A stretch of DNA of 34,611 nucleotides from an uncultured Acidimicrobiaceae bacterium (GTDB lineage: Bacteria; Actinomycetota; Acidimicrobiia; Acidimicrobiales; Ilumatobacteraceae), in contig CALACK010000020.1 in NCBI GenBank assembly GCA_937890395.1, positions 1 to 34,611 on the forward strand. The letters run 5' to 3'. Below the pieces are notes generated by a model that did not search any database, had not been told where the DNA came from, and saw nothing but the letters and a program-made list of their open reading frames with translations. Made by a program: the position numbers and the translations under genes. Positions within the stretch are counted from its first letter, which is position 1. Every line of letters begins with the position of its first letter. Positions 17,680-34,494 of the stretch are shown here, piece by piece.

Positions 17680-18312
17680 TTATTCGCTCTTGTCCTCTGC
17701 CGGGCGAATACCGTAACCCAATTCACCACTCCACGACACGACTCCAGTGAAGTTCGCATCGCCAGATGCGGCCGTTGCTCGCATCCATCCTGAAGTATTT
17801 AGATCTTCACCTTCACGCCAATCTTCCCACGCGAGTTGCTGAGGCTTGCCAGAATTGTCAACGAGAAGTTCACTCTTTGTATAAATCGCATCTTGACGAT
17901 TAGTAAATGAGAATTCAAAAAGTTTTGTTTCAGTAATCGCTTCAGTTGGACAGGCCTCTACGCATAAATCACAATGAATACAGCGGAGGTAATTGATTTC
18001 ATAAATCCAACCGAAGCGCTCACCTGGTGAAGTTGGCTTCATTGGATCATTGTCGGCACCACGAACGTGAATGCACTTGGCCGGGCAAACCGCGGCACAC
18101 AATTCGCACCCGATGCATTTTTCCATTCCGTCTTCGTATCGATTGAGAACATGACGACCATGTAGACGCTCTGGCTTCTCAAGTTTTTCGTCCATCTTGA
18201 CTGCACGTTTTTTGTTGCGTCGGTACACTCGACCGCCTGAGTATTGAGTTGTGACACGATTCTTTACTCCGCGTTGACGAAGCGTGACAATAAATCCCCC
18301 GAGGTATCCCAT
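17680..18312 (-). CDS. nuoI: NADH-quinone oxidoreductase subunit I (2x[4Fe-4S])
   Basis: A 210-residue ferredoxin-like subunit holding clusters N6a and N6b, which carry electrons from NuoG to NuoB. The two motifs are C66-C69-C72-C76 ([11 protein letters not shown]) and C111-C114-C117-C121 ([11 protein letters not shown]). The open frame extends to 18432, but that part overlaps nuoH in another frame; the ATG at 18312 overlaps the nuoH TAA by one base and gives the family's normal N-terminus ([15 protein letters not shown]). The C-terminal tail of about 80 residues is acidic and is typical of actinobacterial NuoI. Confidence 0.94.
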
Positions 18313-19529
18313 TAGAACATTGGTCCTTGTGTCTCGCGCTGCCGCGCGCTTTGAGTAAATGCAGCTTGCAAAAGTAGATAGCCACCCACCATCACAACAA
18401 CCGAGATAGATGTAACTAAAATAATATTCCATTCATTTTGCCGAGCCATGCGCTGTGATGCCAGCAATATGAACCATCCAAGTGCGCCGGGGATAAGCAC
18501 CTTCCAACCGAGATCCATTAATTGGTCGTAACGCAATCTTGGAAGAGTTGCGCGGAACCAAATATAAACATATAGAAATACAAGTACTTTGGCCAGCAAC
18601 CAAAGCGTGCCCTCGAGAGCATTTGGGATTAGAGGTATATCAAAAACGAAGTTTCCGAAAGCGAGCGGTTGAGGACCTCCAAAAAATAGCGTGACGATTA
18701 GTGCCGACATCGTGACCGTGTTCATAAATTCTGCAAGATAAAACAAAGCGAATCGAATTGACGAATATTCTGTATTAAAGCCACCGACAAGTTCTTGTTC
18801 GGCTTCAACTAAATCAAAAGGCGGGCGATTTAGTTCTGCTGTCGCGGCGATTAGAAAAATAATAAACGGCACGATGCCAGTTGAAATAACGTGCCATTGA
18901 GTAATCGTCGCCTGCGCCGCAACGATGCCACTTGTTGAAAGTGTGCCAGCGAGCAATAATACACAGGCCAAAGACAAACCAAGTGCTGCTTCATAACTCA
19001 CCATCTGTGCCGATGCTCGAACAGAACCAATCAGCGGATATTTCGAACCACTTGACCAACCTGCAAGCATGATGCCGTACACGGCAATCGACGAAATCGC
19101 GAGCGCAAAAAGTACTCCAATTGGTGGGTCAGCGAGTTGAACTTTTGTTACGTGTCCGAACCAAGTGACTTCGCCACCGTTGCCGTTACGAAAATCTCCA
19201 CCAAGTGGAATAATTGCGAACGCCAAAAATGCTGGAACGAAAGACAAAAACGGCGCAAGTGCGAAAACAAAACGATCTGACCGATTTGGAATCAAATCTT
19301 CCTTAAAAAAAAGCTTGATGCCGTCGGCCAGAGTTTGCATGATTCCGAACGGACCAGTTTTGTTTGGCCCGATGCGATTTTGCATTCCGGCAATTGCCTT
19401 ACGCTCGAACCACACCATCAACATGGTTGACAACAATCCGACGACAAATACAACCACAACTTTTAACAATATGATCAGCAAAGGCGCCCAAAGTATTTCG
19501 TCTGATAAAAGAGTGTCTAGGGCGATCAC
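18312..19529 (-). CDS. nuoH: NADH-quinone oxidoreductase subunit H
   Basis: A 405-residue membrane subunit (ND1 homologue) that joins the membrane arm to the peripheral arm and forms part of the quinone tunnel. Key stretches are [34 protein letters not shown] (split here as a description only) near the N-terminus and the loop [20 protein letters not shown] with its conserved acidic residues. About eight or nine helices are predicted. It is longer than the E. coli protein because of a C-terminal extension with an extra hydrophobic segment (about residues 373-392). Its ATG overlaps the nuoG stop (ATGA), and nuoI starts on its stop codon. Confidence 0.94.
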
Positions 19530-26807: not shown

Positions 26808-27620
26808 TTATGCCTTTGCGGGCGACTGCTCATTAAGATTCTGTTGCAAATTCAGATCTCTTCGATGCAAGATTCGACACAGCAATAAGAAAATAATTGA
26901 TGAACCGATGGTGATGAAAATTGCAGGTTGTCGCTTGCTACCAAGGTCGCGAACCATATGTATATAGCGGTGCGGTTGGGTTACATCAACTACTGGCCGA
27001 GCCGGCGCACGACCAGGCTCTGTACGCTGAGGCACAACTGGTGCAACTTCAACAAGCACAAAATGAGGCTCATGAAAGAACGCTACAAAATCGAGCGAAT
27101 CATTTATCTTTGGCCAACGCTCTCCACCTTTGTCGTAAACGGCAAGTGAGAGATATTCTCCGGCGACGAGTTCTTCTGCTTCGCGCTGAATGATTTCGTC
27201 TGACGCCGCAACCGCTTGACCACGACGAGGATCTGATTCTTCAAGTAGTAGCCACCCTTCACTTTGTAACACCTCAGATACTTTGGTTGTATCGTTCGCA
27301 ACATCTCCAGTGAGGGTTATCGGCGACTCCAAAATTTCTGCGCCGTGTAGTAACGATGCTTCACGCACGATCGTCACGGGTTCAGCCGGTTGCCATGTTG
27401 GTTCTCGACCTTTAAGACCGATTCCGTATGTCCACCAAATCGCTCCCATTGTTGCCATCCAGCCGAACAATCCAGCGAGTACAACTAGAAAACCAAGTCG
27501 TGCACCCAAGTTTGTGCCAACTACCAAATATGTGCCACCGATTAGTACACCAACAGCGATTGCAACGATGACAATGCCGCGTAATTCTGGCTCCCAATTT
27601 ATTGCAAGTAGCGACAACAT
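26808..27620 (-). CDS. Unknown three-helix membrane protein between bc and nuo genes
   Basis: A 270-residue protein of no family I can name. Two hydrophobic helices lie near the N-terminus (about 14-34 and 39-66), with GIWWTYGIGLKG-like aromatic residues after the second; a soluble stretch of about 150 residues with many acidic residues follows, and a third helix (about 233-251) with a short basic tail closes the protein. No heme-binding CxxCH and no cluster motif occur. It begins on the base next to the stop of the diheme cytochrome c and ends 3 bases before nuoA, so it is certainly in the operon. Location suggests an accessory or assembly subunit of the cytochrome bc complex or of a link between complexes III and I; this is inference. 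Confidence 0.7.
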   Translation of the reverse strand: MLSLLAINWEPELRGIVIVAIAVGVLIGGTYLVVGTNLGARLGFLVVLAGLFGWMATMGAIWWTYGIGLKGREPTWQPAEPVTIVREASLLHGAEILESPITLTGDVANDTTKVSEVLQSEGWLLLEESDPRRGQAVAASDEIIQREAEELVAGEYLSLAVYDKGGERWPKINDSLDFVAFFHEPHFVLVEVAPVVPQRTEPGRAPARPVVDVTQPHRYIHMVRDLGSKRQPAIFITIGSSIIFLLLCRILHRRDLNLQQNLNEQSPAKA

Positions 27621-28679
27621 TTACAGACCTCTCACATAATCAATAACGGCGGCGATTTGTTCGTCGGTGAGCATTAAACCGAACGCAGGCATTCGCCCTG
27701 ATCCTTGACCTTGTTGCCCATATTTTTTGCCTAGTTCACTGCCACCTTTAATGAATGCAATCATGTCATCACGTTGTGGAAACTGGCGAACGGCCGAACC
27801 GCCAGTGAGGTTTGGGCCAAGCGCACCACCACCAGTGATTTGTGGTTCACCATATGACCAACCTTTTGTGTGGCAACGGGCGCACGAAAAGTTTCCGCTA
27901 CCTAGGTCTAAATTAAACAATGCCTCTCCAAGAGTGGCGTAAGTCTTCGCGTTAACCAAACGCTCTGCTTCGGCTTGAATCTCTTGTTGTTTCGCTTCTG
28001 GCAACTTACCATTTTCGTCGCGCGGAATCTGAATACTTTTTACATATTCAATTACGGTTTGAATCTGTTGATCGTTCATTGGTCCGCCGCCTACAAGACC
28101 CCAAGCAGACATCGGAGAAAACGGACGGCCGTAGTTCAAAATAAATCGCACTTCTTCATCGCTGTATCGATAAAAAACTGTATTGATTGCTGGCGCCTTC
28201 CAGTTGACTTGCTTTACTTCACCAGTAGTCGGATCAGTAATCGCGTACGACGCAACACCGCCACCGCCTTTCATTCCGCCGTGACAACCTGCACAATTAA
28301 AGCCGCCATCTGCTGTGGTTGCGAATAATCCTCCACCCCATTCTTCAAACTGGTGCTGAAATTCTTTTTCTGCTCCGACCATGCGACCAGGCTCAAGAAT
28401 CCAATAGAGCGGAAGAGCAATCGTGACTATTGCAAGAAATGCGAGGCCAATTAATTGAGTGCGCTCAATCTTTTCGCCTTCAAGCCGCTCATCGTCGTAA
28501 TACGGTTTGCGGTTTGCGGCAAGCTTAATTTCAGAACCAATTTCGCGTTTCGCCGAACGAAGATTAGATAAACCGTAGATAATCCAACCGAGAACAGATG
28601 CGAGAAGAATTACCCAAGCGATCGTCGTAGTCGTATCGGCAAAAACCATCGAGGCCATTGAGACTGTTGCACTAGTCAT
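27621..28679 (-). CDS. Membrane-bound diheme cytochrome c of the bc complex
   Basis: A 352-residue protein with two N-terminal helices (about 18-37 and 76-95) and two c-type heme sites, CAGCH (129-133) and CARCH (266-270). Candidate axial methionines are Met190/Met201 for the first heme and Met330 (GRMPAFG) for the second, each followed by a helix typical of class I cytochrome c folds. Two fused cytochrome c domains correspond functionally to QcrC of actinobacteria, which takes electrons from Rieske and hands them to the terminal oxidase, but the two-helix N-terminus differs from the usual QcrC layout. It begins directly after the Rieske gene ends and is followed with no gap by the unknown 270-residue protein. 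Confidence 0.88.
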   Translation of the reverse strand: MTSATVSMASMVFADTTTTIAWVILLASVLGWIIYGLSNLRSAKREIGSEIKLAANRKPYYDDERLEGEKIERTQLIGLAFLAIVTIALPLYWILEPGRMVGAEKEFQHQFEEWGGGLFATTADGGFNCAGCHGGMKGGGGVASYAITDPTTGEVKQVNWKAPAINTVFYRYSDEEVRFILNYGRPFSPMSAWGLVGGGPMNDQQIQTVIEYVKSIQIPRDENGKLPEAKQQEIQAEAERLVNAKTYATLGEALFNLDLGSGNFSCARCHTKGWSYGEPQITGGGALGPNLTGGSAVRQFPQRDDMIAFIKGGSELGKKYGQQGQGSGRMPAFGLMLTDEQIAAVIDYVRGL

Positions 28680-29528
28680 TTAGTGTTTACCTGCCCCGCC
28701 GACACAGTGTGGGCCTTCTGCTTCTTGACCAGTTGTATTAGTGCCAATCGGTGGACCGCCAAACACGGCGCCAGTGTCAATGACCATCATTCCGTTATTT
28801 ACTGAAACGCCAAAACGATCCATTCCGCGAGGTGCTGGGCCGCCTTTTTTCTCTCCGACACGGTTGTATTGCGAACCGTGACACGGACACTCAAACCACT
28901 GCGAAGTGGTGCACTCTGGAACTCGGCACCCAAGATGCGGGCACTTTTGGTACAGCGCGACAACACCGGCATTCATTCCCGAAAAAACTGCACCTTGAGC
29001 ACCATAAGCAACCTCAGCTTTCGAGATCGCTTCTTTTGGATATTCAGTAACCCATGAACGCGCCTCTGGCAGATACAAGAAACCACCCGCAGAACGAATC
29101 TGGCCAATTACGTCGTCGATCTTTCCGGCGCTAATTTTTGAGCCGAAGCCACCTTCGGCTCCCTTCCATAAGAAAGCTATAAGTGCTGCGGCAAAACCTC
29201 CGAGGCTTGCACTCATCAATGTCACAGTGGCCCGATTTAAAAATGCTCGACGGGTTTCACCAAGTGCGTCGGCGTCTGGTGCCACCCATGCCTCAATTGC
29301 GGCTGGTGGCATCACGGCTACTGCGCTGCGACTCACGACACCTTGCTTTTCAGCATCGCGCGAAGAATTGCGAGCAACTTTTGCCGAGTCACGATCTCGC
29401 TTACGAGTCTCACGCGACAGTGAGCCAACACCTTTGATATCAGAGCGGCGTGTTGCAGTTAGTACAACGCCAAGACCGAGCACGGCAAGCACGGCAATTG
29501 CGATTGTGATGATTGAAGTTGAGTTCAT
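28680..29528 (-). CDS. qcrA: Rieske [2Fe-2S] protein of cytochrome bc complex
   Basis: A 282-residue Rieske protein. Box 1 is CPHLGC (Cys196, His198, Cys201) and box 2 is CPCHGS (Cys214, Cys216, His217); Cys196/His198/Cys214/His217 bind the cluster and Cys201-Cys216 can form the usual disulfide. There is an N-terminal helix (about 5-25), a charged cytoplasmic stretch (LSRETRKRDRD and following), and a second helix (about 101-121) preceded by TRRAFLNRA, a twin-arginine motif, which fits the hybrid Sec/Tat insertion known for actinobacterial Rieske proteins. The usual actinobacterial form has three helices; here only two are obvious. It oxidises menaquinol at the Qo site and reduces the cytochrome c. 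The symbol is given by function. Confidence 0.92.
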   Translation of the reverse strand: MNSTSIITIAIAVLAVLGLGVVLTATRRSDIKGVGSLSRETRKRDRDSAKVARNSSRDAEKQGVVSRSAVAVMPPAAIEAWVAPDADALGETRRAFLNRATVTLMSASLGGFAAALIAFLWKGAEGGFGSKISAGKIDDVIGQIRSAGGFLYLPEARSWVTEYPKEAISKAEVAYGAQGAVFSGMNAGVVALYQKCPHLGCRVPECTTSQWFECPCHGSQYNRVGEKKGGPAPRGMDRFGVSVNNGMMVIDTGAVFGGPPIGTNTTGQEAEGPHCVGGAGKH

Positions 29529-29544: not shown

Positions 29545-30282
29545 TCACAATTCGAAGAAGATGCCTTCACGCCATGGGAAGACAAAGTTGAAGCCAGGAC
29601 CTCTAAAAAATGAACCAATAATTACGAGTACCGCCCAGAACATTAAGTGCACCGTCATCAAACTTGTCATAAACTTTCGATCCTCAGGACGATTTGATTC
29701 GTTGCGATCTAAATATGGGGCAAACATTAAGGCGATGATCCCCATTCCAGGAATTGTCACGCCAGCAATCATTGGGTGAAACATCGTTAACAACTCTTGC
29801 AGCCCAAGAAAGTACCAAGGCGCTTTCGATGGGTTTGGAGTTCGATTAAAGTTTGCTGCTTGCAACAACGGCGCATTAACAAACCACGAGAACATAAATA
29901 CAAATGCAGTGCACGCAAGCGACGCGACGAATTCGATACCTAATAAGTGCGGCCAAGTATGGACTTTGTCAACTGGTACTGCTTTGACATCTTGAATTGA
30001 TCCTGATTTGACGACAGTAAGTAATCGCTGAGTATGTCCACCAGGTCCGGCGCCGTAAGGAATGCTTCCGTTTGTTGGTGCACCAGCAACAACAGCACCA
30101 GGTTTTTCAGCCAGGGCTACTGCACCACTTGCGGCTTTGCTTCGCTCAAGCAAATCAGCAGGAATTCGTGAGCCTGCATCGCTACTTGCCGCAGTTGGTG
30201 CTGAAGCGCCCACGGCCTCGGCTGCTGCTTTTTCGCGAGCCTCTTGCGCTCGTTTAAGAAGATGTTCTGGAATGCCGGCCAT
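29545..30282 (-). CDS. Cytochrome bc subunit IV-like protein with N-terminal motif extension
   Basis: A 245-residue protein homologous to the C-terminal part of cytochrome b (subunit IV). The membrane part has three helices (about 115-137, 170-190, 210-226). The Qo-site motif is APWY (154-157) in KAPWYFLGLQELL, so Pro replaces the Glu of the common PEWY. The first ~100 residues are an Ala/Ser-rich, cytoplasmic extension: MAGIPEHLLKRAQEAREKAA at the start and a degenerate repeat RIPADLLERSKAA near 39-51. The same N-terminus occurs on the cytochrome c at 32286-33107. The start codon overlaps the cytochrome b stop by one base (TGATG). Together with the upstream cytochrome b6-like gene it makes a split cytochrome b. 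Confidence 0.9.
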   Translation of the reverse strand: MAGIPEHLLKRAQEAREKAAAEAVGASAPTAASSDAGSRIPADLLERSKAASGAVALAEKPGAVVAGAPTNGSIPYGAGPGGHTQRLLTVVKSGSIQDVKAVPVDKVHTWPHLLGIEFVASLACTAFVFMFSWFVNAPLLQAANFNRTPNPSKAPWYFLGLQELLTMFHPMIAGVTIPGMGIIALMFAPYLDRNESNRPEDRKFMTSLMTVHLMFWAVLVIIGSFFRGPGFNFVFPWREGIFFEL

Positions 30283-31067
30283 CAGAGCGGTCCTGAGATT
30301 CCGCCGTCTTTACGCACGCGCCAGAAATGTATCGCGAGGAAGATGACAGTGACGAATGGGAAAAGTAAAACGTGCAACACATACCATCGCAGAAGAGTTT
30401 CTGGTCCAATCTCAACTCCACCAAGCAAAACGAAACGAACTTGCGAACCAATGACTGGTGAGTACCCCATCATGTTGGTACCAACCGTTACTGCCCACAG
30501 CGCAAGTTGATCCCATGGCAATAGGTATCCAGTAAACGAAAGCAACAGTGTGAGTGTCAACAAAATTACACCGATCACCCAGTTGAATTCGCGAGGCGCT
30601 TTATATGCACCGTGATAAAAAACACGTGCCATGTGCAAGAACACTGACAACACCATTAAGTGCGCTGCCCATCGATGCATGTTTCTGACCATTAATCCAA
30701 ATGTCACCGACGTGTGCAACGACTGAATGTCTTGCCAAGCGTTGGCTGATGTTGGACGATAGAAAAACATTAAGAAAATTCCGGTGATCGTCAGCAAAAT
30801 GAACAAAAAGAAACTCAAGCCACCCAAGCACAGTGTGTAACTGACTTTTACAGCGTGACGCTTGACTTTTACCGGGTGCAAGTGATAAAGCACAGAGTTC
30901 ATAACTACGTATGAACGATTTCTTGGTGAGTCTGAGTAACCCTTGCGAAAAATAGAACCTGGTCTAAAAATTGAATTCCATGCTTGGCTGCCCTGCAATG
31001 ACTCATTTAATTTTGTCATGCGATCTTTAATTGTTGGACGAGATTTTTGTTCAAGCATTTGCACCAT
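30282..31067 (-). CDS. Cytochrome b6-like subunit (N-terminal half of split cytochrome b)
   Basis: A 261-residue, four-helix subunit holding both b hemes. The ligands are His131 and His145 (13 residues apart) on the second helix and His232 and His247 on the fourth. The 14-residue gap of the second pair is typical of b6-type proteins, compared with 13 in fused cytochrome b. GYLLPWDQLALWA (180-192) is the conserved Qo-side segment. A long polar N-terminus (about 75 residues) precedes the first helix. It starts 18 bases after the ferredoxin gene and has GGAG about ten bases upstream. Menaquinol oxidation in the plasma membrane is the likely role. Confidence 0.93.
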   Translation of the reverse strand: MVQMLEQKSRPTIKDRMTKLNESLQGSQAWNSIFRPGSIFRKGYSDSPRNRSYVVMNSVLYHLHPVKVKRHAVKVSYTLCLGGLSFFLFILLTITGIFLMFFYRPTSANAWQDIQSLHTSVTFGLMVRNMHRWAAHLMVLSVFLHMARVFYHGAYKAPREFNWVIGVILLTLTLLLSFTGYLLPWDQLALWAVTVGTNMMGYSPVIGSQVRFVLLGGVEIGPETLLRWYVLHVLLFPFVTVIFLAIHFWRVRKDGGISGPL

Positions 31068-31085: not shown

Positions 31086-31499
31086 TTAAAATCGCATGCC
31101 GTATGAATAGCCATGATTATTCGTGCGCATATGAGTTTCGCCAGTCGCTGGCGCAACACCAACCTTGCCCAAAATAATTACTCCTGTTGGACAACGATCA
31201 ACGCACAACGCACAACGCGTGCAAACATCATCATCAATAATAAACACAACCTTGTCTGAAGGATCATCACCTGGCAACTCTGTGCCATCAGCTTGTGTGA
31301 TTGCTTCTGGCGAAACCATGAAGATGCACTTCCATGGACAGATATCAACACAGCCTTCACACATGATGCATTCAGACTGATCAATATGTATGAACTGTTT
31401 TGGCTTGACTGCTTTGCTTAGATATTCGGCGTCCACTTCAACTAGTTGATAATCATCCGTATACGGCATCATCGGTGGGTTTGCGTCAGTTTTTGCCAT
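31086..31499 (-). CDS. 2[4Fe-4S] ferredoxin co-encoded with the bc complex
   Basis: A 137-residue bacterial-type ferredoxin with two complete cluster motifs: C44-C47-C50-C54 (CIMCEGCVDIC) and C93-C96-C99-C103 (CTRCALCVDRC). The 40-residue N-terminal arm, a 38-residue insert between the motifs and a 30-residue C-terminal tail make it longer than free ferredoxins (about 60-80). No membrane helix is seen, so it is likely cytoplasmic or bound to the complex. It lies between the three-helix membrane protein (3-base gap) and cytochrome b (18-base gap). It could feed or withdraw electrons at the bc complex, or join a peripheral module; the role is inferred from position only. Confidence 0.88.
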   Translation of the reverse strand: MAKTDANPPMMPYTDDYQLVEVDAEYLSKAVKPKQFIHIDQSECIMCEGCVDICPWKCIFMVSPEAITQADGTELPGDDPSDKVVFIIDDDVCTRCALCVDRCPTGVIILGKVGVAPATGETHMRTNNHGYSYGMRF

Positions 31500-31502
31500 G
31501 GC

Positions 31503-31979
31503 TCAACCTTTCTTCACTAGTGGACGTCCGTAAGTCGAAGTTGCTACTTCTTTGGTAACTACTTCTCCACGCTTCTGCCACCAACTAAATAAATAAATCA
31601 TTAAACCGATGTAATAAACATGGATGACCACGACGATTATGTCGCGAATTGCTTCGTAACTAATAACAATTGGAAAGCTGCCACCAACAGTGTCTGACTT
31701 CAAAACATCGAATGGTCCGTAAACGAGTTTGTCTTTGCGCCAACCTAAATTTTTATCTGCATGATCAATGAACTGGTGAGGCACTACACCAAACGCTAAA
31801 AACAAAACTGCGAACACATAGGCGGCACCCAGCATCGCTTCGCCCCAAGTTGCTTTGCGATCAAACTTCCGACGCTTACCAATCGGAATTACGACAAGGC
31901 TAAGCAAGGTCGTAAATATCGCCGAAAAAATGAAAGCCTGGTTGACTCCTGGCCATCTGAGAATGTCAATTGCGAGCAT
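31503..31979 (-). CDS. Three-helix membrane protein, first gene of the respiratory operon
   Basis: A 158-residue protein with helices at about 14-34, 49-70 and 107-130. Several histidines lie near membrane ends (VPHQFIDHADKN around 69-77 and His121 in the third helix), so heme or quinone binding is possible but not shown. I do not recognise a named family. It opens the 21-gene unit: its stop is three bases before the ferredoxin start, and the ATG at 31979 has an A/G-rich stretch (AGGAAAGG) about 14 bases upstream, rather far for a Shine-Dalgarno sequence. It may be a membrane anchor for the ferredoxin; this is inference. Confidence 0.75.
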   Translation of the reverse strand: MLAIDILRWPGVNQAFIFSAIFTTLLSLVVIPIGKRRKFDRKATWGEAMLGAAYVFAVLFLAFGVVPHQFIDHADKNLGWRKDKLVYGPFDVLKSDTVGGSFPIVISYEAIRDIIVVVIHVYYIGLMIYLFSWWQKRGEVVTKEVATSTYGRPLVKKG

Positions 31980-32285
31980 TAGTTGAGGGCTTGCCTTTCC
32001 TCTTAAAAATCTGTTTTTAGCCTAGTCGTCAAGATAATCCGACAGATAACCAACTCAAGTTTTTTGGTAAATATTGCAAGGCTTTTAAGTCACTAAGTTT
32101 CACGAATGCTCAACGCAATATGAAAGCACCTATCTTGATGGAATACGTCGCTGAAGCGGTTGTGCGCTAGTGAACTTCTCGCATCAGCCTGACTTGCGTC
32201 TAACCTATTAGAGCAAACGCAGTGAAGATTTAATGGTTAAGAAATTAATTATCAAGTATTTAATTAGAACTAGTTGAGGAGCGCA
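31980..32285. promoter_or_regulatory. 306-bp divergent control region of respiratory genes
   Basis: This is the only gene-free stretch over 300 bases. It separates the minus-strand 21-gene unit from the plus-strand cytochrome c gene, so it should hold both promoters. On the minus strand TTGACG (32026-32031) resembles a -35 box, but no strong -10 follows at the right distance; TAGGCT (32019-32024) is another -10 candidate. On the plus strand the 50 bases before 32280 are very AT-rich, with two TTAATTA-type elements, and AGGAG (32277-32281) is a clear ribosome binding site for the GTG at 32286. Two tiny frames (32106-32123 and 32120-32170) are present but are not convincing genes. No tRNA or other RNA structure was seen. 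Confidence 0.45.
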
Positions 32286-33107
32286 GTGGCAGGAATACCC
32301 GAGCATCTACTTAAGCGTGCACAAGAAGCACGTGACAAAGCAGCTGGCAAGACATCCGACTCTGGAGACGGCGCAACTGCTTCAACAAATGTGCCGGCGA
32401 AAGTCGAAGAAAAAAAATCAGTCGCAAGTGCCGCAATTTCAACTCCACCTCCACCGCCAGATCCTGCATATGTTGTTGCGGCAAATACGCGTAAGAAGAT
32501 TCCGTTTTGGGCGATGGCTACTTTAAGTTTGTTGCCACTTTGGGCGCTGCTGTATGTGCTTGCGATTCGCCCACAAGAAAAAATTGTTGAAGGACCACTT
32601 GCAGTTGGCGCGGGCGTATACGGATCTTGTGCTGGTTGTCATGGTGCCGAGGGCGCTGGTGGGGCTGGTCGAGTTTTGTATCAAGGCGAAGTTCTGAAGA
32701 CTTTTCCAAAAATTGAAGACATGATTAATTTTGTTTATACGGGCTCGCAACAATATGTTTCTGCTGGGCTAAAAATTTATGGCAACCCAGATCGAGATGG
32801 TGGTGCACATGCGCCTCTTTCGTATAACGGAAACCCGATGCCGCAACAAGGTGAGAAATATGGTGGTGGCCTAACTGATGCGGAAATTCTCGGCGTTGTT
32901 TGTCACGAGCGCTATGAAATAAGTGGCGCAGACCCAATGAGCGAAGAGTGGAAAGCAGAATTCGACCGATGGTGCGCACCTGGTTCTGAGATTTTTGCTG
33001 GTCTAGAGGCAGGCTCGGTTAACTTTGACAATCTCGCAGAGAACTACGCTTCAATGCCTGAAGCGCCCGCTCATGTCGGTACCGACCCTCGACCAACTGG
33101 CAAATAA
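32286..33107 (+). CDS. Membrane-anchored monoheme cytochrome c with respiratory N-terminal motif
   Basis: A 273-residue protein: a cytoplasmic N-terminal arm starting MAGIPEHLLKRAQEARDKAA, a linker with a five-proline run (54-58), one helix (about 73-94), then a periplasmic-side cytochrome c domain with CAGCH (115-119) and likely axial Met185 (NGNPMPQQG). Two further cysteines, Cys206 and Cys230, could form a disulfide. A TTG upstream in frame (32274) is rejected as start because it overlaps the ribosome binding site AGGAG (32277-32281); GTG at 32286 gives an N-terminus nearly identical to that of the subunit-IV-like protein. It probably carries electrons from the bc complex to a terminal oxidase or forms part of the complex itself. 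It is transcribed divergently from the bc/nuo unit. Confidence 0.88.
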   Translation: MAGIPEHLLKRAQEARDKAAGKTSDSGDGATASTNVPAKVEEKKSVASAAISTPPPPPDPAYVVAANTRKKIPFWAMATLSLLPLWALLYVLAIRPQEKIVEGPLAVGAGVYGSCAGCHGAEGAGGAGRVLYQGEVLKTFPKIEDMINFVYTGSQQYVSAGLKIYGNPDRDGGAHAPLSYNGNPMPQQGEKYGGGLTDAEILGVVCHERYEISGADPMSEEWKAEFDRWCAPGSEIFAGLEAGSVNFDNLAENYASMPEAPAHVGTDPRPTGK

Positions 33108-33198: not shown

Positions 33199-34494
33199 AT
33201 GCAAAACGAGAAACAACTGACGCACGAGAACACTGGTGAAGTTCAACAAGTGTTGCGCACTGAAGTATTAGTTGTTGGTGGCGGCCCAGCCGGAGCGGCC
33301 GCCGGATTTTGGTTGGCGCGACTTGGTCACGATGTAACAGTGATTGAACGCAAAAAGTTTCCACGAGAAAAAACTTGCGGCGATGGGCTTACACCTAGAG
33401 CCGTTAAAGAACTTGGCGACATGGGCCTTAGCGATCAGTTGTCACAGTTTCATCGCTACGAAGGTCTTCGTGCAACAGCGCATGGCAAAGCACTCGAATT
33501 GAAATGGCCAACTCATCCGATTTATCCGCAATACGGATACGTCGTGCGCAGGCGCGAACTTGACATGATGGTCGCGCGAAACGCACAAGATGCTGGTGCG
33601 AAACTTCTTGAAGAACATGAAGCTATTTCACCAATCATCGAGAACGACTGTGTGCGCGGCGCAATGGTGACAAACAAAGTTGATGGCAACACATTTGCAA
33701 TTCACGCGCAATACGTGATTATCGCTGATGGTGCGAACTCGCGATTTGGTCGCGCAATCGGAACCTCGCGTGAAAAATCTTGGCCGTACGGTACGGCGAT
33801 TCGCACTTATTGGAAGAGTCCAAGACACGACGAACCTTGGATTGAATCGGCGTTAGATGTTAAAGACCGCAATGGTAAATCAATGCCTGGTTATGGATGG
33901 ATATTTCCGGTTGGTGACGGCACCATAAATATCGGCGTTGGACTTCTTTCAACTTTCAAAAACTTTAAAGATGTCAATACTTCGCATTTACTTGATTCGT
34001 ATGCCCACATGGTTGCCGACCGCTGGGAGATTGATCCAACTCAACCTGAGTGCAAAGCCACCAGCGGCAAAATCCCGATGGGCGGATCGGTCGGACCAAA
34101 AGTTGGCAACACACACATTGTTATCGGTGATGCAGCCGGCAGTGTGAACCCATTTAATGGCGAAGGAATCGACTATGCCTACGAGACTGCACATATTGCT
34201 GCCGAGGTATTGCACGATGCGCTAGTTGAGAAAGATGCAATGATTTTAAAACGTTACGACCAACTAATTGAAGAAGAGTATGGTCAATATTTCAAAGTTG
34301 CCCGATTGTTTGCACGCATCATCGGTCGCCCAGTTTTGATGCGCGAACTATCTCGAGTTGGTATTCATAGTCGAACACTCATGGAGTGGGTGCTAAGGAT
34401 TATGGCTAATTTATTGCGACCAGACGAAATCGGCCCAGCCGAGGCTGCTTACAAAGCTGCCGCATTGATCGTCCGCGCAATGCCCGACGCCTAA
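33199..34494 (+). CDS. FAD-dependent geranylgeranyl/menaquinone reductase family protein
   Basis: A 431-residue flavoprotein of the geranylgeranyl reductase family. The N-terminal dinucleotide fold is VVGGGPAG (25-32) ending in ERKKFPREKTCGDG, where Cys60-Gly-Asp is a family hallmark; the second FAD motif GDAAGSVNPFNGEGIDYA lies near residue 312. Such enzymes saturate isoprenoid double bonds; in actinobacteria the related MenJ reduces one isoprene unit of the menaquinone tail, and genes of this family are often placed beside nuo. Position next to complexes I and III supports a quinone substrate, but archaeal-type lipid or chlorophyll-type reductases share the same motifs. It follows the cytochrome c by 91 bases and ends before a perfect hairpin. 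Confidence 0.87.
   Translation: MQNEKQLTHENTGEVQQVLRTEVLVVGGGPAGAAAGFWLARLGHDVTVIERKKFPREKTCGDGLTPRAVKELGDMGLSDQLSQFHRYEGLRATAHGKALELKWPTHPIYPQYGYVVRRRELDMMVARNAQDAGAKLLEEHEAISPIIENDCVRGAMVTNKVDGNTFAIHAQYVIIADGANSRFGRAIGTSREKSWPYGTAIRTYWKSPRHDEPWIESALDVKDRNGKSMPGYGWIFPVGDGTINIGVGLLSTFKNFKDVNTSHLLDSYAHMVADRWEIDPTQPECKATSGKIPMGGSVGPKVGNTHIVIGDAAGSVNPFNGEGIDYAYETAHIAAEVLHDALVEKDAMILKRYDQLIEEEYGQYFKVARLFARIIGRPVLMRELSRVGIHSRTLMEWVLRIMANLLRPDEIGPAEAAYKAAALIVRAMPDA

Follow-up and report, generated by a model that had tools for sequence, protein, structure and literature searches.

In the operon of a b6f-like Rieske/cytochrome b complex, a gene for a 2[4Fe-4S] ferredoxin directly precedes the gene for cytochrome b6, and this arrangement recurs in the class Acidimicrobiia far more often than chance would allow, and also outside the class. 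The reading that we favour, and regard as on balance probable, is that the ferredoxin belongs to a b6f-like menaquinol:cytochrome c oxidoreductase as its electron-transfer subunit on the n-side, connecting a one-electron carrier of the cytoplasm with the n-side hemes of b6; the favoured direction is into menaquinone. Textbook complex III contacts quinone and cytochrome c only, and a ferredoxin beside it suggests electron exchange with the cell interior. If the ferredoxin is a fixed n-side subunit in the whole class and beyond, complex III there would have a third electron port.

The window, i.e. the whole stretch of 34,611 nucleotides that was analysed, contains the following genes of the operon and its surroundings (the membrane protein, the ferredoxin and b6 are called the trio):

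31503..31979, minus strand: three-helix membrane protein of 158 residues, first gene of the operon (ORF call)
31086..31499, minus strand: 2[4Fe-4S] ferredoxin of 137 residues, putative subunit (ORF; two CxxCxxCxxxCP motifs; Fer4 families above cut-offs)
30282..31067, minus strand: cytochrome b6; its N-terminus is extended, and it has His62 and Cys80, the latter a predicted heme-ci site (PF00033)
29545..30282, minus strand: subunit IV-like protein (PetD) with Glu117 and the N-terminal peptide IPEHLLKRA (PF00032)
28680..29528, minus strand: Rieske 2Fe-2S protein with CPCHGSQY (PF00355)
27621..28679, minus strand: diheme c-type cytochrome, also present in the operons of relatives (PF00034 and PF13442)
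26808..27620, minus strand: 270-residue membrane protein without Pfam or NCBIfam family, with homologues in the same position at many loci outside the class; likely a further subunit of the complex
32274..33107, plus strand: divergent monoheme membrane cytochrome c, near the trio in many class loci; possible partner (PF00034)
33199..34494, plus strand: geranylgeranyl reductase family protein, a recurring neighbour (top NCBIfam model menaquinone reductase MenJ, score below cut-off)

Open reading frames, motifs, Fer4 matches and the helix model agree that the ferredoxin and the 158-residue membrane protein head the bc operon, as the initial annotation had stated; nuoA comes after the gene of the 270-residue protein, 3' of the operon. 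The scores for PF00033, PF00032 and PF00355 were above the cut-offs, so a split cytochrome b (b6 and subunit IV) and a Rieske protein are present, and with its predicted heme-ci cysteine the window complex is a b6f-like Rieske/cytochrome b complex. Cytochrome b6 scored 305.2 bits with the ExtP model NF040969 (curated cut-off 290); the name of a selenite/tellurite operon is misleading here because subunit IV, with a score of 59, fell below the ExtQ cut-off of 150. With the Actinomycetes QcrB model NF050120, b6 scored only 119.9 (cut-off 500). Actinobacterial QcrABC (mycobacterial bcc) passes electrons from menaquinol to cytochrome c and thus has the same respiratory role; we know of no ferredoxin subunit in it. 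The named plasmid relatives of b6 were only cytochromes b of less than 60% identity, none of them reaching 80% query cover.

Subunit IV (30282, minus strand) and the monoheme cytochrome c (32286, plus strand) open with the near-identical peptide AGIPEHLLKRAQEAR, which has clear matches at only these two places in the genome (a third match is weak, E 0.95). A looser form of the peptide recurs in 49 fetched loci, and the peptide might be a tag by which both proteins dock to a common partner.

Conservation within the class was assessed by single-sequence searches in a sample of 148 genomes of Acidimicrobiia. The ferredoxin was matched in 120 and b6 in 142 of these genomes (both at E <= 1e-20), 124 having a b6 of the window type and the others weaker matches; the membrane protein was matched in 91 (E <= 0.001). 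In 118 of the 124 genomes with window-type b6 the ferredoxin gene is the immediate upstream neighbour of b6 on the same strand, with gaps of 8-201 bases (median 105). Among the other six, G084, G096 and G111 have fewer than 250 bases upstream of b6, which is too short for a ferredoxin, and G018, G036 and G114 keep the window-type b6 and truly lack the upstream ferredoxin, with no match elsewhere in the genome either (E <= 1e-20). Conversely, 119 of 124 ferredoxin matches are adjacent to b6; the others comprise partial sequences of short length in G076, G131 and G139 plus an additional copy in G107, the latter being the only full-length ferredoxin away from b6 at E <= 1e-20. It had been suggested in the initial annotation that conservation of the trio as a block should be checked, and such a block was found: the genes stand in the order membrane protein, ferredoxin, b6 in all 90 fetched class loci (the 30 best membrane-protein matches, window included, and 60 taken from the ferredoxin matches), and likewise in 20/20 loci outside the class. 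Of the class loci, 23 had not been used to train the membrane-protein profile, and the order holds in all of them. Titled loci that contain this trio are labelled Acidimicrobiales, Ca. Microthrix and Aquihabitans (L141, L148, L175, L191), and the ferredoxin in the trio of Aquihabitans sp. G128 (L191) is 77% identical to that of the window. None of the 14 genomes sampled from three families of the same order (f2, f4 and f5) gave a ferredoxin match, and the sole cytochrome b in them is distantly related (E about 1e-21 to 2e-28).

In the phylum, class included, the ferredoxin was found in 112 of 396 genomes (E <= 1e-17). The 20 loci fetched outside the class were picked by family for spread, and the membrane-protein profile had been trained on some of them. 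Each of the 20 has the ferredoxin gene immediately ahead of b6, and a homologue of the membrane protein in front of the ferredoxin. Three outside-class loci (L113-L115) have kept the membrane protein and b6 and lost the ferredoxin. In a quick b6 tree all 39 window-type rows (33 of the 129 with ferredoxin and 6 without) form one group with a support of 99. Since the ferredoxin-less rows are scattered within this group, where well-supported branches force at least 4 changes, the ferredoxin was probably ancestral in it and lost several times. It appears to be dispensable for the core of the complex, because the complex is kept in G018, G036, G114 and the three outside-class loci.

A few loci have peculiar compositions or titles. 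L065 (G187:C115), from a genome placed outside the class, has a class-like ferredoxin (66%) and a distant one (39%), for which contamination or transfer might account. L166 and L193 are MAG contigs titled Steroidobacteraceae and Proteobacteria; mis-binning of L166 is possible because it is grouped among Chloroflexota rows in the quick tree.

All eight cluster cysteines of the ferredoxin are present in every one of 90 sequences from the class and 25 from elsewhere, and conservation of its long C-terminal arm is confined to the class. A homologous ferredoxin domain was found joined to a GltD-like NAD(P)H-type flavoprotein in 49 distinct related b6 loci, the match being just before b6 or Rieske: the flavoprotein gene precedes the Rieske gene where this precedes b6, and otherwise it precedes b6. 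Flavoprotein and ferredoxin matches are open in one frame in 48 of the 49 loci, whose titles name Chloroflexi, Acidobacteria, Verrucomicrobia, Zixiibacteriota and Citrifermentans (Geobacteraceae), in addition to second b6 operons of some Acidimicrobiia. Three flavoproteins that were tested matched Fer4_20 and Pyr_redox_2, with PRK12771 or GltD-like models below cut-offs. In the first eight flavoproteins the C-terminal 2[4Fe-4S] domain is 33-43% identical to the window ferredoxin, and 122 of the 141 free domains share the second-cluster signature CxRCxLCxxRCP with 46 of the 49 flavoprotein-joined ones; it is absent from the NuoI-like frame of the window. Weak homologues of the membrane protein (E 5e-6 to 0.023) stand right before the flavoprotein match, within 27 bases, in nine of the 49 loci, all nine among the 19 labelled actinobacterial; in the other 40, which include all loci from other phyla, none was found on the same strand at E <= 0.1. 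Because the joined domains are homologous and a membrane-protein homologue precedes the flavoprotein in nine loci, the window operon reads as the actinobacterial operon minus the flavoprotein part. Judged from sequence, the ferredoxin looks like the freestanding form of a 2[4Fe-4S] domain that elsewhere is fused to the C-terminus of an NAD(P)H-type flavoenzyme. Some b6 operons among 80 titled loci have neither form of the ferredoxin nearby; of all loci examined that lack a ferredoxin match, 28 lack a membrane-protein match too and two have the membrane protein only.

The NuoI-like frame lies at 17680-18432, and NuoH-, NuoI-, NuoJ- and NuoK-like frames occur also on another contig (L257, G000:C163). 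The NuoI-like frames on two contigs, which were judged by eye, possibly represent two complex I clusters.

Cys80 and His62 of b6 are both present in 129/129 loci with a window-type b6 and ferredoxin, and the subunit-IV glutamate in 48/48, the other 81 loci being without that part of PetD in the fetched stretch. We take Cys80 to be the site of covalent heme-ci attachment and the glutamate to be the axial ligand of heme ci. Discussion in the excerpted text of PMC12954380 is among the grounds for this assignment. The intact site is no marker of the ferredoxin, as window-type loci without ferredoxin have the cysteine in 6/6 and the glutamate in 5/5 cases. Both residues are kept in a flavoprotein group of 12 rows, 11 of them Chloroflexota, which is among the closest b6 outside the window type. 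In 20 actinobacterial-type flavoprotein loci (19 labelled so, L116 being titled only 'bacterium') the cysteine is replaced by Tyr, Phe or Arg and the glutamate by His or Gln. The second actinobacterial Rieske/b6 operon with a GltD-type flavoprotein-ferredoxin fusion (GltD-Fd) and with loss of the cysteine and the glutamate (L099-L106, L116-L126) is a candidate for an anammox-like NAD(P)H-linked complex in Acidimicrobiia.

From the gene order, the conservation, the domain homology and the site residues we infer how the ferredoxin would bind b6, along which path and in which direction electrons would pass, and which soluble partner may take part. The complex would consist of b6, subunit IV, Rieske protein, diheme cytochrome c, two small membrane proteins and the ferredoxin, which would serve as a third electron port at the cytoplasmic face. 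On the favoured path, reduced ferredoxin or a flavoprotein would deliver electrons to the ferredoxin subunit and this, via heme ci, to menaquinone. Menaquinone is the likely partner, and the input direction is favoured, because the heme-ci cysteine and the subunit-IV glutamate are intact. The idea of a ferredoxin:menaquinone module attached to the bc complex has thus survived in part: a link between ferredoxin and quinone through the complex is plausible, because homologous domains sit there joined to an NAD(P)H-type flavoprotein and the heme-ci/Glu site is intact, but no joint module of membrane protein and ferredoxin with histidine sites emerged (see below).

As to the donor, the window's operon has no NAD(P)-type flavoprotein subunit, and the sole GltD-like match in the genome (E <= 1e-5) adjoins a GltB-like frame; other Fer4 proteins do occur in the genome. 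The most obvious donor would be 2-oxoacid:ferredoxin oxidoreductase. The window's own family was represented by 12 genomes, all with the ferredoxin; a search of these for KorA (TIGR03710, E <= 1e-30) gave no match in six, among them the genome of the window (91% complete), and TIGR03710 is present in 10 of the 14 ferredoxin-less genomes of f2, f4 and f5. The case for KorAB as an obligatory donor is weakened by these counts. According to excerpts of PMC11697166, Acidimicrobiia have the menaquinone MK-9(H8), and POR and OGOR occur in almost all of them, a statement to be qualified because KorA is missing in part of the window's family; KOR is described for UBA5794 in excerpts of PMC12008989. A role of the ferredoxin as a helper in heme-ci maturation is unlikely, because joined homologues accompany b6 proteins without the cysteine.

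Electrons could also run in the opposite direction. Menaquinol would then be bifurcated, one electron going via Rieske and cytochrome c to oxygen and the other via bL and bH to the ferredoxin, so that an aerobic complex III would make reduced ferredoxin. The NAD(P) oxidoreductase complexes of anammox bacteria have been suggested to work in this way, and the excerpted text regards a high-potential Rieske protein in a menaquinone complex as an argument for bifurcation and NAD(P)H-to-quinone flow as wasteful (PMC12954380). The Rieske Ser and Tyr, which the same excerpts link to high potential (PMC12954380), are present in 34 of the 35 ferredoxin loci that have a Rieske gene in the stretch (35 of 129), the remaining one being unaligned there, and the lack of a match for the usual ferredoxin donor in half of the window's own family (6/12) would also fit. 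However, the same Ser and Tyr occur in 5/5 window-type loci without ferredoxin, and the Tyr recurs in 10 of the 23 ferredoxin-less loci whose b6 is more distant. Moreover, the heme-ci cysteine and the glutamate are intact here and both lost in the 20 actinobacterial-type flavoprotein loci, as expected if only those divert electrons from quinone. We therefore regard bifurcation as unlikely. A bolder claim, that the main complex III of a large actinobacterial group, some with genomes of ~1 Mb, is electron-bifurcating or ferredoxin-coupled, making reduced ferredoxin from menaquinol and oxygen or running in reverse as a valve through its built-in 2[4Fe-4S] subunit, seems to us rather unlikely.

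Among described systems, the anammox NAD(P) oxidoreductase-Rieske/cytochrome b complex comes nearest; it is represented in excerpts of PMC12954380 by Kuste4569-4574 and Kustd1480-1485 of Kuenenia stuttgartiensis. Both the Kuenenia complexes and that of the window have a b6f-like split cytochrome b, and an n-side Fe-S route linking b6 with the cytoplasm is predicted for the former and may exist in the latter, as far as the excerpted description goes (PMC12954380). The Kuenenia complexes contain a putative NAD(P) oxidoreductase and multiheme cytochromes, whereas the window has a ferredoxin only, a diheme cytochrome c and intact Cys/Glu (PMC12954380, excerpts). The n-side NAD(P)-type flavoprotein subunit that the Kuenenia type needs is lacking in the window's operon; for the 2[4Fe-4S] link, the window has a freestanding homologue of the domains joined in related loci, the Kuenenia proteins being set beside these by description. 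An early b6 histidine of Kuenenia was taken as the counterpart of His62, from the description in the excerpts and without alignment (PMC12954380). An interface heme of the Kuenenia type would lie between two b6 histidines, and His62 is invariant in the loci with ferredoxin (129/129), yet 18 of the 23 more distant b6 proteins that lack a ferredoxin have it too. The GltD-Fd flavoprotein loci resemble the window in their homologous 2[4Fe-4S] domain, b6, subunit IV and, usually, a Rieske gene nearby, some also having a weak membrane-protein homologue in front; they differ in having the ferredoxin domain in the flavoprotein frame (48/49) and, in the actinobacterial ones, in lacking the heme-ci cysteine and glutamate.

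Cyanobacterial and plant cytochrome b6f shares the b6 fold and the heme-ci cysteine. It works with plastoquinone and cytochrome f and has, to our knowledge, no genetically linked ferredoxin subunit of this kind. Docking of ferredoxin(-FNR) near heme cn has been proposed for b6f, and in plants and algae heme cn has been proposed to relay ferredoxin electrons to plastoquinone (PMC9342900, excerpts). No description of a freestanding ferredoxin subunit in such complexes was found among the matches listed for open-licence papers, though one may be in print. The n-side subunit, if real, would allow the old proposal of electron transfer from ferredoxin to heme ci to be tested directly, and likewise the newer one that Rieske/cytochrome b complexes can drive the reduction of NAD(P)H or ferredoxin. 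Intact quinone sites with the free ferredoxin, versus lost sites in the actinobacterial flavoprotein-joined forms, lead to opposite, measurable predictions.

Alternatively, the ferredoxin could be a structural, regulatory or assembly subunit that carries no electrons during turnover. Its dispensability in several lineages that keep the complex is compatible with this, and the class-specific C-terminal arm could be a clamp. Full conservation of the eight cluster cysteines (see above) speaks against such a role, as does the domain content of the joined homologues, which is that of redox enzymes, and we consider it improbable.

Co-folding of membrane protein, ferredoxin and b6 as a read-through chain gave a confident membrane protein and a poor b6 (mean pLDDT 65, pTM 0.43). 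With ferredoxin and b6 only and an alignment of 87 rows, both parts were folded (mean pLDDT 78.6, pTM 0.63), their relative orientation being unsettled. The modelled b6 part matched solved b6 structures with Z up to 21.5, the ten top b6f rows having Z 20.0-21.5 and 35-42% identity. Although the unsettled docking at pTM 0.43 and 0.63 would suit a common soluble ferredoxin whose only tie to complex III is co-transcription, we hold this to be distinctly improbable: across the class the ferredoxin gene has hardly ever moved away from b6, joined forms precede b6 or Rieske in other phyla, and the arms beyond the cluster domain are conserved in the class.

The 158-residue membrane protein has no Pfam or NCBIfam family above cut-off and no PDB relatives by sequence. 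Its model shows with high confidence helices at 14-36, 45-76 and 108-136, and a fold look-up of the triple model returned a few helical-bundle rows over its region. Homologues lie upstream of the ferredoxin or b6 in relatives. Among 132 sequences, W45 (132/132), P67 (129/132), D113 (128/132) and Q135 (128/132) are conserved. The histidines at the helix ends, to which the initial annotation had drawn attention, are present in the window, but none is conserved across relatives: H68 was found in 64, H73 in 12 and H120 in 17 of the 132, and a role as heme or quinone ligands was rejected. Nor do membrane protein and ferredoxin behave as one module, since the membrane protein adjoins b6 where the ferredoxin has been lost (L096-L098, L113-L115). 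Given this persistence without ferredoxin and the variable histidines, the membrane protein appears to be a separate subunit. In loci from relatives of Ktedonobacter, proteins of ~490 residues encoded 2.5-3 kb downstream of b6 (L150:9161-10642, L157:9337-10803, L140:9589-11079) gave weak matches to the membrane-protein profile (E 3e-5 to 0.055).
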